DNA of 64,000 bases from Aurelia coerulea (taxonomy: Eukaryota; Cnidaria; Scyphozoa; Semaeostomeae; Ulmaridae). The DNA lies in assembly GCA_039566865.1 (NCBI GenBank), contig CM076948.1, positions 22,517,001 through 22,581,000 on the forward strand, in the 5' to 3' direction. Under the pieces are notes generated by a model. That model was not told the origin of the DNA. It saw only the letters and a list, made by a program, of their open reading frames with translations, and did not search any database. Shown here piece after piece: positions 4,683 to 19,217 of this stretch. Position 1 is the first letter of the stretch. The number at the start of each line of letters is the position of its first letter. A program made the translations under genes and the position numbers.

Positions 4683-4842
4683 CCAAGAAAATACCTGGTT
4701 ACCATGGAAACGAGGTATCATCCGTATTGCTACCAAATTTGAAAGAAATATTACCTCAGGAAAGGGCATTTCCAAGATAAGTAAACTGAGGTGTATTTAA
4801 GAAGTAAGGAATGTGATCAAAAATGCATTTTGACAATTACCC

Positions 4843-5082
4843 TTGATAACAGAATACCTGGTTACCATGAAAACGAGGTATGATCCGTATTGCTACCAAA
4901 GTGAAAGAAACATTACTTTAGGAAATATATCTTTATTTAAAATGTTTCAATTTTATGGAAGCAAATTATGGAACTCTTTGCCAACTGAAGTAAGCCAAGC
5001 GTCCTCAGTAGAACAGTTTAAAAAATGTAATTTTAGTTACTTTATGGATATTTTCAAGTGTGAAAACTACACACAATATTAA
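4843..5082 (+). pseudogene. C-terminal scrap of a non-LTR (LINE) reverse transcriptase ORF
   Basis: The frame contains GSKLWNSLPTEVSQASSVEQ followed by FKK and then a stop. The pattern KLWNSLPxxxxxxxSxxxFKK is a familiar C-terminal signature of LINE ORF2 proteins, as known from jockey/CR1-type elements. No upstream reverse transcriptase domain is present. A short (CATA)n run follows at about 5350-5365, as at many LINE tails. A block at 4683-4760 is repeated at 4850-4920 in diverged form, so the locus is rearranged. It is a dead 3-prime fragment; the LINE clade cannot be told. Confidence 0.6.
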
Positions 5083-5349
5083 TGGTCAATATAATTTATT
5101 TTCTTTCATTGATTTTACCACTTTTATTTATAACATATGTATACATTGAATATTTCACTACTATCTTAAATTTTTAAGGTTTATTTTAAAAGACTCTTTC
5201 AGGAAGTAAATGGACTCTTATATAGAAAAGTATTGCGGATTGCCTTTTGTAAATATATCTTTATTTTTGGTTTTTGTTTATTTTAGTGGACCAGGCTGTA
5301 AACAAGTTTTAGCTTAGCTACTCGTAAAATCCACGTAAAAGAAATGATT

Positions 5350-5365
5350 ACATACATACATACAT
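5350..5365 (+). repeat. (CATA)n microsatellite
   Basis: About four CATA units. They sit downstream of the LINE C-terminal fragment and may be its tail. Confidence 0.6.
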
Positions 5366-5790
5366 TTCCAAGATAAGTAAAACGGTCCGTTACACTTTTG
5401 TTACTTGAGTTGTGCCAGCCTGTAAACTCGAGAGGTATGCTTCTGGAAGGCAAGTCGCTCTGTCTCCTCGGAAACCTAAATCTTTTGTTTTGCAAATTCG
5501 CCCTTGCTGTGCACAGTTCCATTCCTCTAAATCTCCCTCAAAATGACGACAGAAAAAACGAGACAAAGCAGTATGAGGCAAAAGAGCTGTTGTAACGAAA
5601 TTCAATTGACTTTGTGGTGAGATCAGTGACCGGTTAAAGAAAGTGATGACAGAAATTATTGTAGGTTGCGGATATAACATGTGCCAAAAAAGGGCTGTCA
5701 CACCATCTGTTCTTGGAGATTTATGCCAAATTTAGCGAAAAAGATCGATTTGTCACACGATGATTTTAGGAGTGGATCATATGGGTGGTT

Positions 5791-6534
5791 AGCCTGCGCG
5801 CAGACCCATTGTCCAAAGGAGGAAAGGGTCTGCGCAACTACGAGCAATAGCTTGCCGCCCATTCTTGGTTTCTGGAATTTAATTTATGCAATATCACAAA
5901 AGACCATGTAATTATGCAACTACATGAAACACCAGTGGTCAATCGCACTGAAATCAAAATGGCGCATCACAGAAAAGAAATAGTCGTAATAAATATAAGA
6001 TTTTGACGAAACTGTATTTGAGAATGTATTGGAGAAACAACATTTATCAATTTCAAAATACATAGCAAACAGTCTCATGCTCAGATCGCGTGTTGTTCTC
6101 AGTCCAATGCGTCTTTTGTGATAAATATGAAATGTCTTTCCCTGAGGAAGGGAAACCTATTCTGTCTGATAACAATCACACAAAAGAAGAAAACAAGGAC
6201 CTTGAAAATTCTAGAGCACTATTTCAAAAGGCAAGATTGCATAATCCCTGCTATGACGAATTAAAAAGAACTTGTCAAAACATGCCTTTATGTTCATTAA
6301 TCTATCTTCTGTCTTTGAAGCAATCATTTGACTAACAAACAACGCTTTGCAAGAAAGGCCAAACAAAAAGATACAAACAGCCATAGAAAATGGTGCATTG
6401 GGAGGATTAGATCGAGTAATATTTAGTGACCTATTACGAGGCCGTTAGAATAAATTACTAGAAGGCCCGGCAAGCTTTGGCTCGTAGTTGCGCAGACCCT
6501 TTCCTCCTTTGGACAATGGGTCTGCACGCAGGCT
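5791..6534. mobile_element. Foldback-end element with AGCCTGCG termini and target duplication
   Basis: The left end AGCCTGCGCGCAGACCC and the right end are inverted repeats of about 55 bp, including the sequence reading TTGTCCAAAGGAGGAAAGGG. A direct repeat ATGGGTGGTT flanks it (5781-5790 and 6536-6545), with one extra A on the right. The interior of about 640 bp is not palindromic and contains a small open frame (6090-6335). Confidence 0.75.
6090..6335 (+). CDS. Orphan small ORF inside the AGCCTG element, unknown
   Basis: An 81-codon frame ending at a TAA. Its composition is protein-like: charged and hydrophilic in the middle (EEGKPILSDNNHTKEENKD), with scattered Cys residues. A pyrimidine-rich TGTTGTTCTCAG upstream could be a splice acceptor. 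It may be a captured host exon or just chance. No family was recognised and no donor site was seen. Confidence 0.2.
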   Translation: MLFSVQCVFCDKYEMSFPEEGKPILSDNNHTKEENKDLENSRALFQKARLHNPCYDELKRTCQNMPLCSLIYLLSLKQSFD

Positions 6535-12838: not shown

Positions 12839-12843
12839 CAAGG

Positions 12844-12871
12844 CACTGTGATCCAGACAGGGAATTAATCC
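12844..12871 (+). promoter_or_regulatory. Left transposon tip: heptamer, 12-bp spacer, nonamer-like block
   Basis: CACTGTG (12844-12850) is followed by a 12-bp spacer and then AATTAATCC (12863-12871). The V(D)J signal consensus is CACAGTG, 12 or 23 bp, ACAAAAACC. The heptamer matches 6 of 7 and the block 5 of 9. This is the presumed transposase recognition site. Confidence 0.6.
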
Positions 12872-13423
12872 CAAAAAATGAAACTACGAGTATACACTAT
12901 TTGAGGGTTTCATCGTAGCGAGGAGACATTGAGCTATTCGACACAACAAAAATTTCTTAAATCGGTCTTATAAATCCAGAGATATGATTTTTTAAAGTTT
13001 GACTAAATTGCAAACGGTTGTTTACGTTGCAATTTCCGGCCTTTTGTTTGCTGTATCGTTGAAAACTCATAAATTCAAGTTCTTGTATCTCTTCAACTAA
13101 TGCACCGATTTTTTGAAACTTTTTTTTGTTTTACAGATAAACACCTAAGCTATCTAAAAATACAAAGATATTTGCAAAATCTCAAGTCGATATATCAATA
13201 TTTGTCAAAATGGCGTATGACCTTTTTAAGCACGAAAACCAGGCAAATTATCGTAATTTCGTCGTTTATAGTGAAAACAAAAAATCTAACCAAATCTAAC
13301 TCTTCGAAAAAAATATCAAAATTGAATATGACGTCTTGCGAGAATTTCTGCCAAAGGATTCGTACAGCTTCGTACAGGAAAAAAAGTTATCACACATTTG
13401 GTAGGATAGGCCCTTTTTGGTTT
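12844..13423 (+). repeat. Left long terminal inverted repeat
   Basis: About 580 bp, the reverse complement of 18622-19212. It ends inside at GGCCCTTTTTGGTTT. Chance open frames such as 13100-13534 fall partly in it and are mirrored in the right copy. Confidence 0.9.
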
Positions 13424-13573
13424 AACGTTGATTTTTTGGCAACGATTTTTTGGCTTCGTACATTATTGAACTATTTCGCATACGAAAAGTGTCTATGCAA
13501 ACTACTTTCAACTATATTAGCTTTATGTGAGTAAAGCTTGTGTCTCTAAAGTATTCATTTTTTGGTCGATTAG

Positions 13574-14441
13574 CTAGTTTTCATTGTACATGTTCTTGAT
13601 AAGGGCTTCTTCTCGGTTGGGTGTATCGAACATCTCACTTTTTTTCGTTTGTCGCTTCAACACATCTTGTCGAGCCTTTGCAACAATAGGTGCCGAGGTT
13701 ATCAGCATGCGAACAAATACATCCTCGAGGTTTTCTCTTACTGATGTTTGCCGAGCTCGACAACCAGCACCACTCCTGAAATTACGGATATGCTTGTTCC
13801 ATGCCTCTAGGCCGCTTTCTGACCATACAGCAATTGGCTTCCCTTCAAGCATTTGAAACAATTGCCAATTGTGCGCAAGCATTTGATGGACAGAGGGACT
13901 GACTTTAACCCACGGGAAATGGATGGCAAGGTGGATCATTGTGTCATAGCAATGATTTCAGAATCTTTCGATGTTGACAGTTTGTGATTGGTCGACACTT
14001 TCTGAGACGGCGAGGCACACATTTAGCTGGCCGAGCAAGATGCTGAAGTTATGTCGGTCTTCAGCGCTATTAATGAGGCTGCATATAGCATCTCGATTCC
14101 ATTGGCTGAAAAAGCGGATTGCTGTGGGGCCTGCATTAGTATTACCGCCGCTTGTTGTTGGTGAATCAATCAGCAAGCCACCACAGGTAAGCTTTACATG
14201 GCTGATTGCTGTGGTTTTGGCCTCTGCAACTTTTAACTTTATAGCTTGGTTTGCTTCACTCCAAACTTTTTGCTCACAAATAAGATGGTAAAAGATCTTT
14301 AGAACGAAGTCTAGAGATCTCAATTTTTGATGGAGGATCGCGAATAAGCGGCCTGATTGTGATACCATTGGCTTGTGGCACTGCCCTTTACGTCGAGGGT
14401 CGGAATATGCAATTTGCCCACTTTCAACCATCTCCCACCTT
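13574..14441 (-). pseudogene. RAG1/Transib transposase, C-terminal third with catalytic Glu
   Basis: Read on the minus strand, this is one frame broken by an in-frame TGA near 13955-13957. The upstream part carries a GGNTNAGPTAIRFF block, close to the GNTNDGNTxRRFF motif known in Transib. The downstream part has VHQMLAHNW, where HxxxxH has the spacing of the RAG1 zinc-binding histidines, then SESGLEAWNKHIRNFR. The Glu at 13805-13807 matches the catalytic Glu of RAG1 (NESGNK context). The region after it (CRARQTSVRENLEDV) also aligns with the RAG1 C-terminal core. The frame closes at 13574. Upstream it is separated from the rest of the transposase by the element at 14444-16646. Confidence 0.85.
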
Positions 14442-15014
14442 TACGGGGTGTCCAAGTCAGACCCAAAACACGTAGACCCAAAAGAAATTCGCGTAGACCC
14501 AGACCAAAATTCTTGAGTTTGACGCAGACCCAGAATATTAAAGGCAGTTTTGTGGTAGACCCGACAATTAACATAATATTCTTAGACCCAAAACTTCATA
14601 ATAGATTAAAGTAGCATTTGTTGTTGTTAGATATTTGTTTTAACTAAAAACAACTCGTTAGTAACCTTCTGGGCACGATGATTGATTTTATGATAATTAT
14701 GCACTTTGGAAGTGAAACAGTTCTTCCGGGGGGGGGGGGGCACTTAGTACCTGATGTGTTATCATGCGCGTACAAAAAAACGCAGGAAAGGGTGCCTTTC
14801 TTCAAAGTAGGCACGGGCCCGCGCGGGCCCGTGTTTAGGGGTGCCGATTTGACCATGGTTTTACAAAAGGGTGTCTTATTTTGCATTTGATAAATCTGAA
14901 CTCCTCTGCAATGATATCTAATCAAAATTTCTAAAATAGAGTTTGTAGCGAGTCAAAGAACTTAGCAGACCAGCACAAGATGGGGTAGGAATTCGGGAGC
15001 AGTTTTCTCTTCTA

Positions 15015-16139
15015 CCCTGGGTACCCGACTCTATGAAATAGAATCTTTAACATCATTTTTAACATTATTAACATCATGGCAGCACAGTGGCGTGGCCACA
15101 GGGGGCGGGGGGTATGTGAGGTCATTGTCCCCACCACTTTTTTCGAAAGATGGTTCTCGATTTCCTTCAAAAGGACAAGTTCGGGGTTGGTATGATTGAT
15201 GATAAAATACAAGATTATACTGCAATGAATGATGTATGATACTTTTTCCCACTATTTTTTGCCTTCTCCTTGTGAAATTACGTATTCAAATGAGCAATTT
15301 GAACGAAGTGACGTCATATCGCACAAACAAAAACGAAGATGTGCGATTGCTTTTTCGCCTCTTAATCGCTGCTAGCCTCTGCGTCATGTACTCATGCATT
15401 GAAAATGGCATGAGAACACGATAAGGAGGCTTGCTACGATAAAGAGGCGAATAAACAATCACACAGCCTCGTTTTCGTTTGCACGATATGACGTCACTTC
15501 ACTCAAATTGCTTATTTGAATATGTATTTTCACAAGAAGATGACGAGAAATCGTGGAAAAAAGTATTATACATCATTCATTGCAGTATTATCTTGTATTT
15601 TATCATCAATCATACCAACCCCGGACTTGTCCTTTAAAACCGAAGAGACAATGGCTTGGCATAAGTGAGGTAAGAATTTTCTGAGAAATGTCAAAGCTTC
15701 CATTTTAGCACTGGCAAAAATGGAATCAGGGGATACATTTTACGCCAAAGTAATGGGTGCATCTTCAAAAATTTTCCTCCTGCTCCGATGTAGCTATAGA
15801 AAAAATGTCACGAACCATAAATGTTTTCTTGCCACAAATGGCAAGCATGATGTTGGGAGATGCTTTCTAAGCCAAAGTAAAAGATGTTTCTACAAAAATT
15901 TTCCTTGTGGTCTACTTTATTGGATAACTGTCACAAAACTATCAAAGTTTCCTTGTCGCTATTGGTAGCATGATGTTGGGAGGTGCATTTTCAGCCAAAG
16001 TAAAGGGTGTGTCCCAAAAAATTTCCTAACGGCTTCGCCCCCAGGCCCTCTCATTTCAATACCCCCACTTAATTTACCTTGGCCAAGCCACTGTGGTGGC
16101 ATCCATAGAATTTGATTTTAGAGGGTCTGGTACCCAGGG
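15015..16139. mobile_element. Second-level nested TA-flanked MITE
   Basis: The inverted ends CCCTGGGTACC and GGTACCCAGGG have TA on each side (15013-15014 and 16140-16141). It sits inside the 14444-16646 element. It contains direct repeats of AAAATTTTCCT- and GGAGATGCTTT-type blocks around 15720-16020, and the palindrome at 15171-15634. Confidence 0.7.
15171..15634. repeat. Third-level nested palindromic foldback MITE
   Basis: The arms AAGGACAAGTTCGGGGTTGG and their inverse meet near 15400. They include mirrored TGACGTCAT-type blocks (15308 and 15489). A relative, itself interrupted, is at about 48160-48790. Confidence 0.8.
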
Positions 16140-16648
16140 TACTCCTCTTTAAATCACACCGGCAATTTTAGCAATTTTAGTAACTGACTTGTCAGTGATT
16201 ATGGTACCTGAAATTGAGAAGCTCTATTTGGACGCGGGAAATGGTATGTTCTGCAGAAAATTTTCCGCGAATAGGGTATGTATTTCGCTTGAACAGGTCG
16301 GCGTTTAGGGTGCATATGTTAAACCTTTGTATGAGCATGATAGAAAAGTATAGAAGATTGTAGAGACCATGTACCTCCCATCGGCGTAGGGGGAGATAAA
16401 ATTTGGGGGGCTGCCCGATAAAAAGTCCATTGTTTGAGAAAATTTTGCCCGACTTGAGGCGGATTTCTGCCCGATTATGGCTGATTTTTGCAAATTATAT
16501 TTTCAAGCAGACCCAAACTTGGTCCATCTGTAGACCTAAGATCTAAGAACCTAAATAGTAACAGACCCGAAGAATTTTACCCTAGACCCAAAAATTATGT
16601 GTAGACCCACTTCAAAAAGTGCCTTGGGTCTGACTTGGACACCCCGTA

Positions 16649-17075
16649 CCTTTCCATACACTCCTCGACGGTCTTTGTGATTGGCATACCGTCAACGCCA
16701 GCCTCTGCCAAATATTGCAACTGGCTCGCTTCGCTCTGAGCTATGTCACAATAGTGGCAGAAACTCCCAGAATCCCCCTGCACAATGGAAACCATTTTCC
16801 CATCCATCATCGTGACTCTTGTTTTTATGGTCACTTTATTGGTAATTCCGGCAACATCGTGCGGCTCCATTAGGGAGTCGATATCGGACTGAAGTTTAGG
16901 GAATATGGCCGCGATAAGTTGCCTCGATTCCTTAGCTTTCACGAGGCTGATGGGTCTTGTGTAAAAGATCGAATTTGGGGTAGAGTTTTCCCAAACGGTG
17001 TGGCAGCCATCTTCTGCCTCGAAGAATATCTTCATAGGGGTCATGAAAATTCCAAGAAAGTGGTCGGACAATGAG
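16649..17075 (-). pseudogene. RAG1/Transib transposase, central part with CxxC
   Basis: The minus-strand frame runs LSDHFLGIFMTPMKIFFEAE..., then ENSTPNSIFYTRPISLVKAK, then TRVTMMDGKMVSIVQGDSGS and FCHYCDIAQSEASQL. The CxxC after GS aligns with the zinc CxxC of RAG1 (ICTLCD followed by EAS). TMMDGK matches the conserved MIDGK block of Transib proteins. The frame is shifted by one base from the upstream part near 17075, and the nested element cuts it at 16648. Confidence 0.85.
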
Positions 17076-17907
17076 TTGACATGGAGGAATCATCATCACG
17101 ATTACCTGACAACTGCTGTCGCTTTTTGTGTGATCCAGACCCATCTAGACCCGCTTTAACGTCGAACTGCAAGAGGTTATCGCCTTTAAGCAGATCAAGT
17201 TTGTCTCCTATGGGCTCACTGGAAAGCAATGCGTGCAGGGTAGAATCGAAAAGGTCTTTGACATCTACCGAGGCGGACAATGAGTCTAGCTTGATGGAAG
17301 GGTATAAGGATTTCTTGTAGCAGTCAATTTCAGTTCTTGGTCTGAAAGAATTCACGCCGTATTTTATCAGCAAGTTGCGGCACATCTGATATTGACGCTG
17401 TGAGAGGTTTCCAACGTATACCAGGGCTGTTAGCTCACTTACAGGAATAGAAGAAATTTGCAAGCTTTGAAAAAACTCTGACATGTCCCAGCCTTCTGAC
17501 TTACATGCCTCCTCGACCATCTTCTGCAACATTTCTTCTTTCCTAATTCCATTCGCATCAGCCAGAACTTCAACAGAACTAAGACTATCCCTCAGCAGCT
17601 TGCGCTCTACTTTACGACAAGGTAGATCACCAAGTGACAGGGTGGGACGGCCAGATTTTCGTGGCAATGATAATTGACTGTCTGATCTTGGTCGGCTACG
17701 TTTTTTAACTTGTTCATCTACTTCATCATTGAACACTCTTTCTTTCACACGCCAGGCTTCATCCTTAACTTTAACTTGATACAATTTTTGAAGTACTAAT
17801 TGAATTTTATATGCGTCTTCCTTCAGCCCCTTTTCCTTTATCAGTTTCTCTGCTAGATCCTTAAATTTTGCAGTATATTTCGCGTTATACTTCGTACTTT
17901 TATCCTT
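17072..17907 (-). pseudogene. RAG1/Transib transposase, N-terminal part with first catalytic Asp
   Basis: The frame is open on the minus strand from just after an in-frame TGA (17908-17910). A preceding ATG at about 17963 would add some 18 residues if that stop is a mutation. The N-terminus is Lys-rich (KLIKEKGLKEDAYKIQ), followed by a basic KKRSRPRSD segment that could be a nuclear localisation or DNA-binding region. Near the end is FDVKAGLDGSGSHKKRQQLS, whose Asp at 17143-17145 matches the first catalytic Asp of RAG1 and Transib (KESCDGMGD and xxDGSxGxSxYKQ contexts). A one-base deletion near 17075 throws the frame off just after this motif. Confidence 0.82.
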
Positions 17908-17910
17908 TCA

Positions 17911-18621
17911 ATCACCATTTTCAACTATGAAATCATAAAGCTCGCCATTCGTTGTGATAAACATGATAGATTTTGTGACATATAGCTATTGGAATGGTTT
18001 AAAAACTACAGGCTAGCAGTTTTATGTTTCAGCAGTCCTTGTTTTATTTTGCGGTAGAAACTGACTTGGAAATTAACATAGAAAATTCTGCTTCTCAACG
18101 AGGCATAGGAAACACACAAGCTTGGGTCGGTCATAGTTACGAGGAAAAAAACCATTTGATTGTCTTGCAGGTGTTAGTTTATGCACAGTTGCTTCATCCT
18201 GTAATTTGAGCTCTCCCTCCATCCCATATACAGTATGGTGAGCTGTAGACACTCTCAATGCGTACCATCAAAGATTTACAAGTTGAATTTATATTTTGAA
18301 AGAACAAGCACTGAGTGCGGTAAAGTTGCCTTGCCTTAAACAAGAGGCATTTAAGGCCAATAGGTGAATGGGAAAGTAATGACAGGGGAATGTTGGCAGT
18401 AGTTATGTTTCAATAAAAGTCACTACAAGCATATCCAAACTATTGACGACTCTTCTCTACCAAATCGAGGCCCTTGAAGACCAGTTAACATTTTCATTGA
18501 CTACGGAATCGAGATCAAATCCGAGTCGACAAACAAGAAGCATGAAAATATTACACCACAACAAGATCTTTATCAATAGTTGGTTGTAAATGCTTTAGTG
18601 AGTACGACGATACCCAAACAC
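17911..18621. other. Transposon interior upstream of the transposase
   Basis: It lies between the transposase start and the right inverted repeat. A minus-strand frame (18073-18258) contains KLVCFLC and could be an upstream exon, but no splice pairing was established. The promoter of the transposase would lie here. Confidence 0.4.
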
Positions 18622-19212
18622 AAACCAAAAAGGGCCTATCCTACCAAATGTGTGATAACTTTTTTTCCTGTACGAAGCTGTACGAATCCTTTGGCAGAAG
18701 TTCTCTCAAGACGTCATATTCAATTTTGATATTTTTTTCGAAGAGTTAGATTTGGTTAGATTTTTTGTTTTCACTATAAACGACGAAATTACGATAATTT
18801 GCCTGGTTTTCGTGCTTAAAAAGATCATACGCCATTTTGACAAATATTGATATATCGACTTGAGATTTTTCAGATACCTTTGTATTTTTAGATAGTTTAG
18901 GTGTTTATCTGTAAAACAAAAAAAAGTTTCAAAAAATCGGTGCATTAGTTGAAGAGATACAAGAGCTTGAATTCATGGGTTTTCGACGATACAGCAAACA
19001 AAAGGCCGGAATATGCAATGTAAACAACAGTTTGCAATTTACTCAAACTTTAAAAAATCATATCTCTGGATTTATAAGACCGATTTAAGAAATTTTTGTT
19101 TTATCGAATAGCTCAATGTCTCTTCGCCATGGTGAAACCCTCAAATAGTGTATACTCGTATTTTCACTTTTTGGGATTAATTCCACGATTTCTAAAGAGC
19201 TGGATCACAGTG
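18622..19212 (-). repeat. Right long terminal inverted repeat
   Basis: About 591 bp, inverse of 12844-13423. The 11-bp excess over the left copy is accounted for by the longer spacer next to the heptamer. Confidence 0.9.
19174..19212 (-). promoter_or_regulatory. Right transposon tip: heptamer, 23-bp spacer, nonamer-like block
   Basis: Read inward on the minus strand: CACTGTG (19212-19206), a 23-bp spacer, then AATTAATCC (19182-19174). The left end has the same two blocks 12 bp apart. The first five or six spacer bases (ATCCAG) are shared and the rest differs. Confidence 0.6.
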
Positions 19213-19217
19213 CAAGG

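Follow-up and report, generated by a model that had tools for sequence, protein, structure and literature searches.

The 64,000-nucleotide window analyzed here, from the jellyfish Aurelia coerulea (assembly GCA_039566865.1, contig CM076948.1, positions 22,517,001 to 22,581,000), contains at positions 12844 to 19212 a decayed, formerly autonomous Transib transposon, a cut-and-paste DNA element of the RAG1 superfamily, whose two ends are unequally spaced. The left tip reads CACTGTG-12 bp-AATTAATCC and the right tip, followed inward along the minus strand, CACTGTG-23 bp-AATTAATCC. The pairing of a short spacer (12 to 13 bp) with a long one (22 to 23 bp) was found in all 10 of the diverged families of such elements that we distinguished in the same genome. 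The signals used in V(D)J recombination consist of a CACAGTG heptamer, 12 or 23 bp, and then a nonamer, and RAG pairs one signal of each kind.

The first-pass annotation of this DNA had described CACTGTG tips with gaps of exactly 12 and 23 bp, inverted repeats that are colinear beyond the spacers, and a 5-bp CAAGG duplication on the two flanks, all of which can be read directly in the sequence (Table 1). The inverted-repeat arms align over 563 nucleotides without a gap and are 96% complementary, and the 11-bp difference in length is therefore confined to the spacer. The block that follows the spacer agrees with ACAAAAACC at 5 of 9 positions and is nonamer-like by its position and its richness in A; a second A-rich stretch adjoins it on the inward side.

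With the left arm as query, a search of the genome (574 Mb, 294 contigs) found 417 candidates. Of the 40 that were scored, two were the window's own arms, and 20 of the remaining 38 were fetched. The left end had a spacer of 12 bp in all 20 copies, and a second, right end was found in 19 of them, each time with a spacer of 23 bp. As the copies had been chosen by their left arm, the right ends were not preselected. The spacing seen in the window thus holds in other copies, and a private indel of the window copy is almost certainly not the source of the 11-bp difference, as each of the 19 other copies with two ends shows the same difference; this explanation was rejected. An exact 5-bp duplication flanks 13 of the 20 two-ended elements of the window family (the 19 copies and the window element itself). 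The remaining seven (L012, L014, L015, L017, L019, L027, and L028) have intact tips, and the flanks of L019 share a 4-bp stretch rather than the full duplication; the duplications could be missing because copies exchanged sequence or because the ends that paired belonged to different copies. One copy, L011, derives from the window element by internal deletion, with its positions 1 to 795 and 796 to 2351 matching element positions 1 to 798 and 4823 to 6369.

The genome was also surveyed with an end pattern, CACWRTGATCCAGN{3,22}RRAADWAATNVV, which leaves the spacer length free between 11 and 30 bp. The pattern had 1272 matches, and the backward control had none. Among the matches listed, 99 ends were counted, nearly all of them on one contig and some overlapping the fetched copies, after one nested duplicate row had been dropped. 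The spacer was 12 to 14 bp long in 55 of these ends (12 bp in 15, 13 bp in 37, and 14 bp in 3, the last containing a run of A that allows a reading of 13 bp as well) and 22 to 23 bp long in 44 (22 bp in 29 and 23 bp in 15), while a genome pattern search for spacers of 14 to 19 bp ending in GG gave no match. Facing pairs less than 6 kb apart among the matches listed were short/long in 29 of 30 cases, with one 13/13 pair, L061. In an overlapping set of 32 two-ended elements that were read at the sequence level, 31 were short/long.

Searching the genome with P0001, a relative of 714 amino acids, gave 70 matches, several with long open frames at 55 to 66% identity. The flanks of 16 such loci had both ends at nine, one end at six, and none at one. 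A short spacer was paired with a long one at all nine two-ended loci, and exact 5-bp duplications were present at seven of them, a count that includes both C22:6894683 and C5:8404581, which have identical printed flanks and probably represent a single insertion that was duplicated. These two loci and C5:9215296 have the same 8 letters beside one end (TTACATCG), and two of the three also have GGGCGATG at the other end, which suggests one insertion copied through segmental duplication. An equal-ended family was rejected on the grounds of these nine loci and the 29 facing pairs.

The ten families comprise the window family, seven families from the P0001 loci, and two from the pattern matches (L062 and L063). 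Counted to the first A of the block, the spacers are 12/23 in one family (that of the window), 13/22 in seven, 12/22 in one, and 13/23 in one, and the canonical heptamer CACAGTG is present at at least one end in 9 of the 10. The first six spacer bases, ATCCAG, and usually also the last two, GG, are common to the families; the conservation of ATCCAG is built in for the L062 and L063 families because the pattern search demanded it, and the seven P0001-type families were sought with a tolerance of 3 mismatches in 13. Conservation across the ten families was 1.8 to 1.9 bits per column in the heptamer, 2.0 in ATCCAG, 0.96 in the last six bases of the short spacer, 0.52 at positions 7 to 12 of the long spacer, 1.23 in its last ten bases, 1.34 to 1.35 in the A-rich block, and 1.29 in the next ten bases inward. 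The parts of the spacers past ATCCAG differ on average by 41% (long, eight families of equal length) and 51% (short, eight families). The 12/23-like asymmetry proposed from the single element has thus turned out to be general as a short/long pairing, with the exact values 12 and 23 confined to the window family; the enzyme may obey a pairing rule.

The transposase gene in the window is broken by a nested 2.2-kb insertion with its own inverted ends, by a frameshift within positions 17041 to 17089, and by stop codons. Its likeness to RAG1, claimed in the first-pass annotation, was confirmed by a match of one fragment to the Pfam RAG1 family (4.5e-6) and by comparison with solved structures (HzTransib, 5e-7; zebrafish RAG1, 2.6e-5). 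The transposase shows homology to RAG1 and Transib proteins, a predicted fold of that kind, and an aligned catalytic triad, and the features by which the Transib superfamily is recognized, namely, a RAG1-related DDE transposase, CACWRTG-type tips, and a 5-bp target-site duplication, occur together. A RAG1-like nonamer-binding domain (NBD) is supported by hhalign (96%, score 57; shuffled sequences, ≤15), and in a structure comparison with VIA-align, some RAG1 chains aligned from residue 391 on, with a root mean square deviation of 8 to 13.

The closest relatives outside the window clade are Transib-type proteins, most of them with a CTT1 tail, at 32 to 45% identity; HzTransib follows at 24%, and amphioxus RAG1L is more distant at 20% (pieces only). 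The CTT1 tail (Cx2Cx3GHx4C) is absent from P0001 to P0006, the six clade members with complete C termini (those of P0007 to P0012 are incomplete), and present in 15 of the 21 more distant proteins, P0014 to P0034 (P0033 and P0034 are incomplete). The distance from the zinc motif to LRSLD is 75 residues in the window clade and 71 to 72 in more distant relatives where measurable, and the zinc region of HzTransib is about 38 residues shorter at the aligned place. In a tree without HzTransib, amphioxus RAG1L, and P0028, the window clade is separate with 100/100 support; with HzTransib and amphioxus RAG1L included, the branches are very long, the support is weak, and HzTransib lies near the window clade.

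Several further transposase-type sequences were noticed. P0009 is 100% identical over 524 amino acids to C3:2215144-2216715 of this genome. P0014 to P0032 are Transib-type transposases, 36 to 45% identical to the query and mostly with CTT1, on contigs of 2 to 5 kb that are probably metagenomic. No relative turned up when viral and prokaryote contigs were scanned with the transposase profile. Three frames (G000:C5:1656072-1657109, C6:9627715-9628521, and C5:4384043-4384696) are 28 to 30% identical to P0009 and, by sequence, possibly belong to other Transib or RAG1L lineages. A 1.2-Mb cluster, G000:C1:42616451-43771373, holds six transposase-type frames, five of about 653 amino acids, whose alignment to P0001 stops at about residue 644, just beyond the catalytic E640. 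A short-type end lies 1.1 kb upstream of one copy in this cluster (flanks L039 and L040), and no other end was found within 2.2 kb; the cluster may be a segmental duplication or a host-adopted gene family.

Taken together, the explanation that we consider probable as a whole is that of a RAG2-free Transib transposon that brings one short and one long end into synapsis. The transposase would do without an element-encoded RAG2 partner, its DDE catalytic core cutting at the CAC(A/T)GTG heptamer by the nick-and-hairpin route of RAG1 and Transib, while the N-terminal RAG1-type NBD, as a dimer, would grip the A-rich blocks and may also contact the second A-rich stretch beyond them. As in RAG, the synaptic complex would join one end of 12 to 13 bp and one end of 22 to 23 bp, the latter being longer by about one helical turn, and insertion would occur with a 5-bp stagger. 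From ends that are always unequal, we infer ends that must be unequal, that is, an enzyme that would need unequal spacers for efficient transposition. It is conceivable, although we would advance it only tentatively, that this RAG2-free jellyfish transposase obeys a true 12/23 rule, enforced by the RAG1-type NBD, in a clade that lacks CTT1.

Against this background, there is a possible alternative, which we do not favor, in which the functional asymmetry of one helical turn is real but its agreement with the V(D)J values of 12 and 23 depends in part on where the block is taken to start. Counted to the first A, only the window family is 12/23, and by their authors' counts, other unequal-ended elements have quite different values (4/13 in AanRAGL [PMC9435367] and 27/31 in ProtoRAG, the latter as given in an excerpt of PMC8289069). 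However, in all ten families the short spacers deviate from 12 and the long ones from 23 by 1 bp at most, and nine of the ten have CACAGTG, the canonical heptamer, on one or both ends.

A rather unlikely alternative is that the asymmetry is family-wide but passive, having been inherited by all families from one unequal-ended ancestor whose enzyme followed no pairing rule. A number of observations favor it or weigh against a functional need for unequal ends. CACWRTGATCCAG recurs in all ten families, as do similar blocks (required in the search for the two pattern families), and since ATCCAG is common to the families, the asymmetry may have been inherited once. An indel test calibrated on the arms (32 gap openings per 327 mismatches) did not bear out the expectation that spacer length is conserved beyond neutral and is compatible with drift: given how far the spacers have diverged, two families would keep the same length with a probability of 0.53 for the long and 0.71 for the short spacer, and the equal lengths in 29 of 45 family pairs for each spacer are not exceptional. 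The short end lies on either side of the gene equally often (4 versus 4 among eight gene-bearing families), but inversion between the arms explains this, flipping the interior and leaving the tips untouched, and short-end switching was therefore dropped as an independent sign of selection. Two results had been named beforehand as arguments against the asymmetry. The first, equal spacers elsewhere, was encountered once, in the symmetric 13/13 copy L061. The second, a block conserved no better than its surroundings, was half borne out: conservation of the A-rich block exceeds that of the variable spacer, yet the ten bases next to it on the inward side are about as conserved. Finally, 11 of the 32 two-ended elements, 10 of them short/long, lack an exact 5-bp duplication.

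Other observations argue against purely passive inheritance. Despite the divergence of the spacers past ATCCAG, no end among the matches listed falls between the two length classes. Symmetric copies do arise, as L061 shows, but only one was seen; its 5-bp flanks are unlike (CGACT and CCCAG), there is no target duplication, and the copy hardly resembles the outcome of a single clean insertion. The related ProtoRAG, with its 27/31 spacing, works better with unequal ends according to an excerpt of PMC8289069. In copy C13, the two arms differ at only 1 of 552 positions, and the same arms are 97.6% and 98.5% identical to those of copy C10; being closer to each other than either is to the same arm in C10, they were recently homogenized. 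The spacers of C13 have remained 13/22, which fits selection against equal ends, although the 9-bp heterology near the tip may alone stop conversion in this copy, and heterology of 9 to 11 bp may in general halt gene conversion at the spacer. C13 is the single copy that carries this argument, since the window family gave no sign of arm homogenization (average identity of 94.6% between the arms within a copy versus 97.6% left-left and 96.3% right-right between copies).

It is very unlikely that the element is a RAGL transposon of the ProtoRAG type that lost its RAG2-like gene. The RAG1-like fold, the 5-bp duplications, and the unequal ends would agree with such an origin, and RAG1L-RAG2L pairs are reported for Aurelia aurita in the part of PMC7204232 consulted. 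However, the nearest relatives outside the clade are of the Transib type, followed by HzTransib and then by amphioxus RAG1L, and P0001 at 714 amino acids is too short for the RAG1 N-terminal region. The RAG2 family (PF03089) had no match in the genome in a search whose control was likewise silent, and no second gene was recognized within the element ends. A RAGL identity was rejected on these identities and on the RAG2 search, which together are a weak test.

The element was compared with known systems. V(D)J recombination by RAG1-RAG2 is similar in the CACAGTG heptamer (9 of 10 families), the spacers of 12 to 13 and 22 to 23 bp, the A-rich block, and the RAG1-type core with NBD and without CTT1; in contrast, the jellyfish element is self-mobile, no RAG2 was seen, and its block is only partly like ACAAAAACC. 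All Subgroup I Transibs have asymmetric terminal inverted repeats (TIRs), and the CTT1 tail is a feature of that subgroup (Tao et al. 2022, PMC9435367). The jellyfish families share with it the paired asymmetric TIRs (10 of 10), an NBD with a GRP motif, the DDE core, the lack of a recognized RAG2, and a zinc-binding region of sufficient length for alpha11-alpha12, but the window clade has no CTT1 tail and stands apart (100/100 without the long branches). Some Subgroup I ends of PMC9435367 may have the same spacings. TIRs of the 12/23 type are listed, in a passage of PMC8355894 citing a 2005 paper, for Transib5 of D. melanogaster and Transib2, N1, N2, and N3 of Anopheles gambiae; as described there, these insect elements likewise have a heptamer like that of recombination signal sequences, one 12-type end, and one 23-type end, but they belong to another host phylum. 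ProtoRAG of amphioxus and AanRAGL of a microalga also have bipartite unequal ends and 5-bp duplications but differ in their spacings and their RAG2-like genes. HzTransib (PDB 6pqn and 6pqx) has symmetric TIRs with little or no similarity to the nonamer, per an excerpt of PMC8289069, and the shorter zinc region noted above. Asymmetric Transib ends of the 12/23 type are therefore already known from PMC8355894 and PMC9435367; our work adds a clade without CTT1, an animal beyond the named insects, and a survey of ten families with about 100 ends read. No paper on jellyfish Transib ends was found in the open-access literature, and a search for the letters CACAGTGATACAG returned nothing related and one unrelated paper.

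Table 1. Features of the window element and its flanks
Feature	Position	Strand	Basis
Left target-site duplication copy, CAAGG	12839..12843	.	Sequence
Left heptamer CACTGTG, 12-type end, 3' side of gene	12844..12850	+	Sequence; identical in 20/20 fetched copies
Left 12-bp spacer, ATCCAGACAGGG	12851..12862	+	Sequence; 12 bp in 20/20 fetched copies
Left inverted-repeat arm, 563 nt, 96% complementary to right arm	12861..13423	+	Arm comparison
Left nonamer-like A-rich block, AATTAATCC	12863..12871	+	Sequence; cross-family block comparison
C-terminal transposase fragment with third catalytic acidic residue (SESGLEAWNK) = E640 of P0001	13574..13957	-	Open reading frames, alignment
Transposase fragment, region past zinc motif	13958..14440	-	Open reading frames, relatives
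Nested insertion splitting transposase gene, ends TACGGGGTGTCCAAGTCAGACCC, 4-bp flank repeat CCTT	14442..16648	.	Sequence, inverted-repeat comparison
Transposase fragment, RNase H-like core, distal end enters nested insertion	16595..17089	-	Pfam RAG1 PF12940, 4.5e-6
N-terminal transposase fragment, GRP nonamer-binding-type motif, ends at frameshift	17041..17907	-	Open reading frames; relatives
Probable transposase start, MFITTNGELYDFIVENGD, cut off by stop codon	17908..17964	-	Open reading frame reading
Right inverted-repeat arm, 563 nt	18622..19184	-	Arm comparison
Right-end nonamer-like block, AATTAATCC	19174..19182	-	Sequence
Right 23-bp spacer, ATCCAGCTCTTTAGAAATCGTGG	19183..19205	-	Sequence; 23 bp in 19/19 right ends from 20 copies
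Right heptamer CACTGTG, 23-type end, 5' side of gene	19206..19212	-	Sequence
Right target-site duplication copy, CAAGG	19213..19217	.	Sequence

The nested insertion contains an inverted pair of 228 nucleotides (15170-15397 and 15408-15635, 86%), and DNA resembling this insertion is also present within copy L024.

These findings bear on the origin of the 12/23 rule of antibody gene assembly, for which transposon precedents are few in the literature consulted, comprising some insect Transibs as well as RAG-like elements spaced 27/31 or 4/13. A single animal genome here offers ten diverged families, more than 1000 end-pattern matches, transposase copies with open frames, and no RAG2 recognized in the element. 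This makes it testable outside vertebrates whether a RAG1-type core with an NBD can alone enforce unequal spacers and whether the absence of CTT1 goes with reliance on a nonamer-like block, two traits that are also found in the RAG1 of jawed vertebrates. If the jellyfish transposase does obey such a rule, the 12/23 restriction would go back to the Transib/RAG1 core itself or have evolved on two occasions, and neither the immune system nor RAG2 would have invented it.

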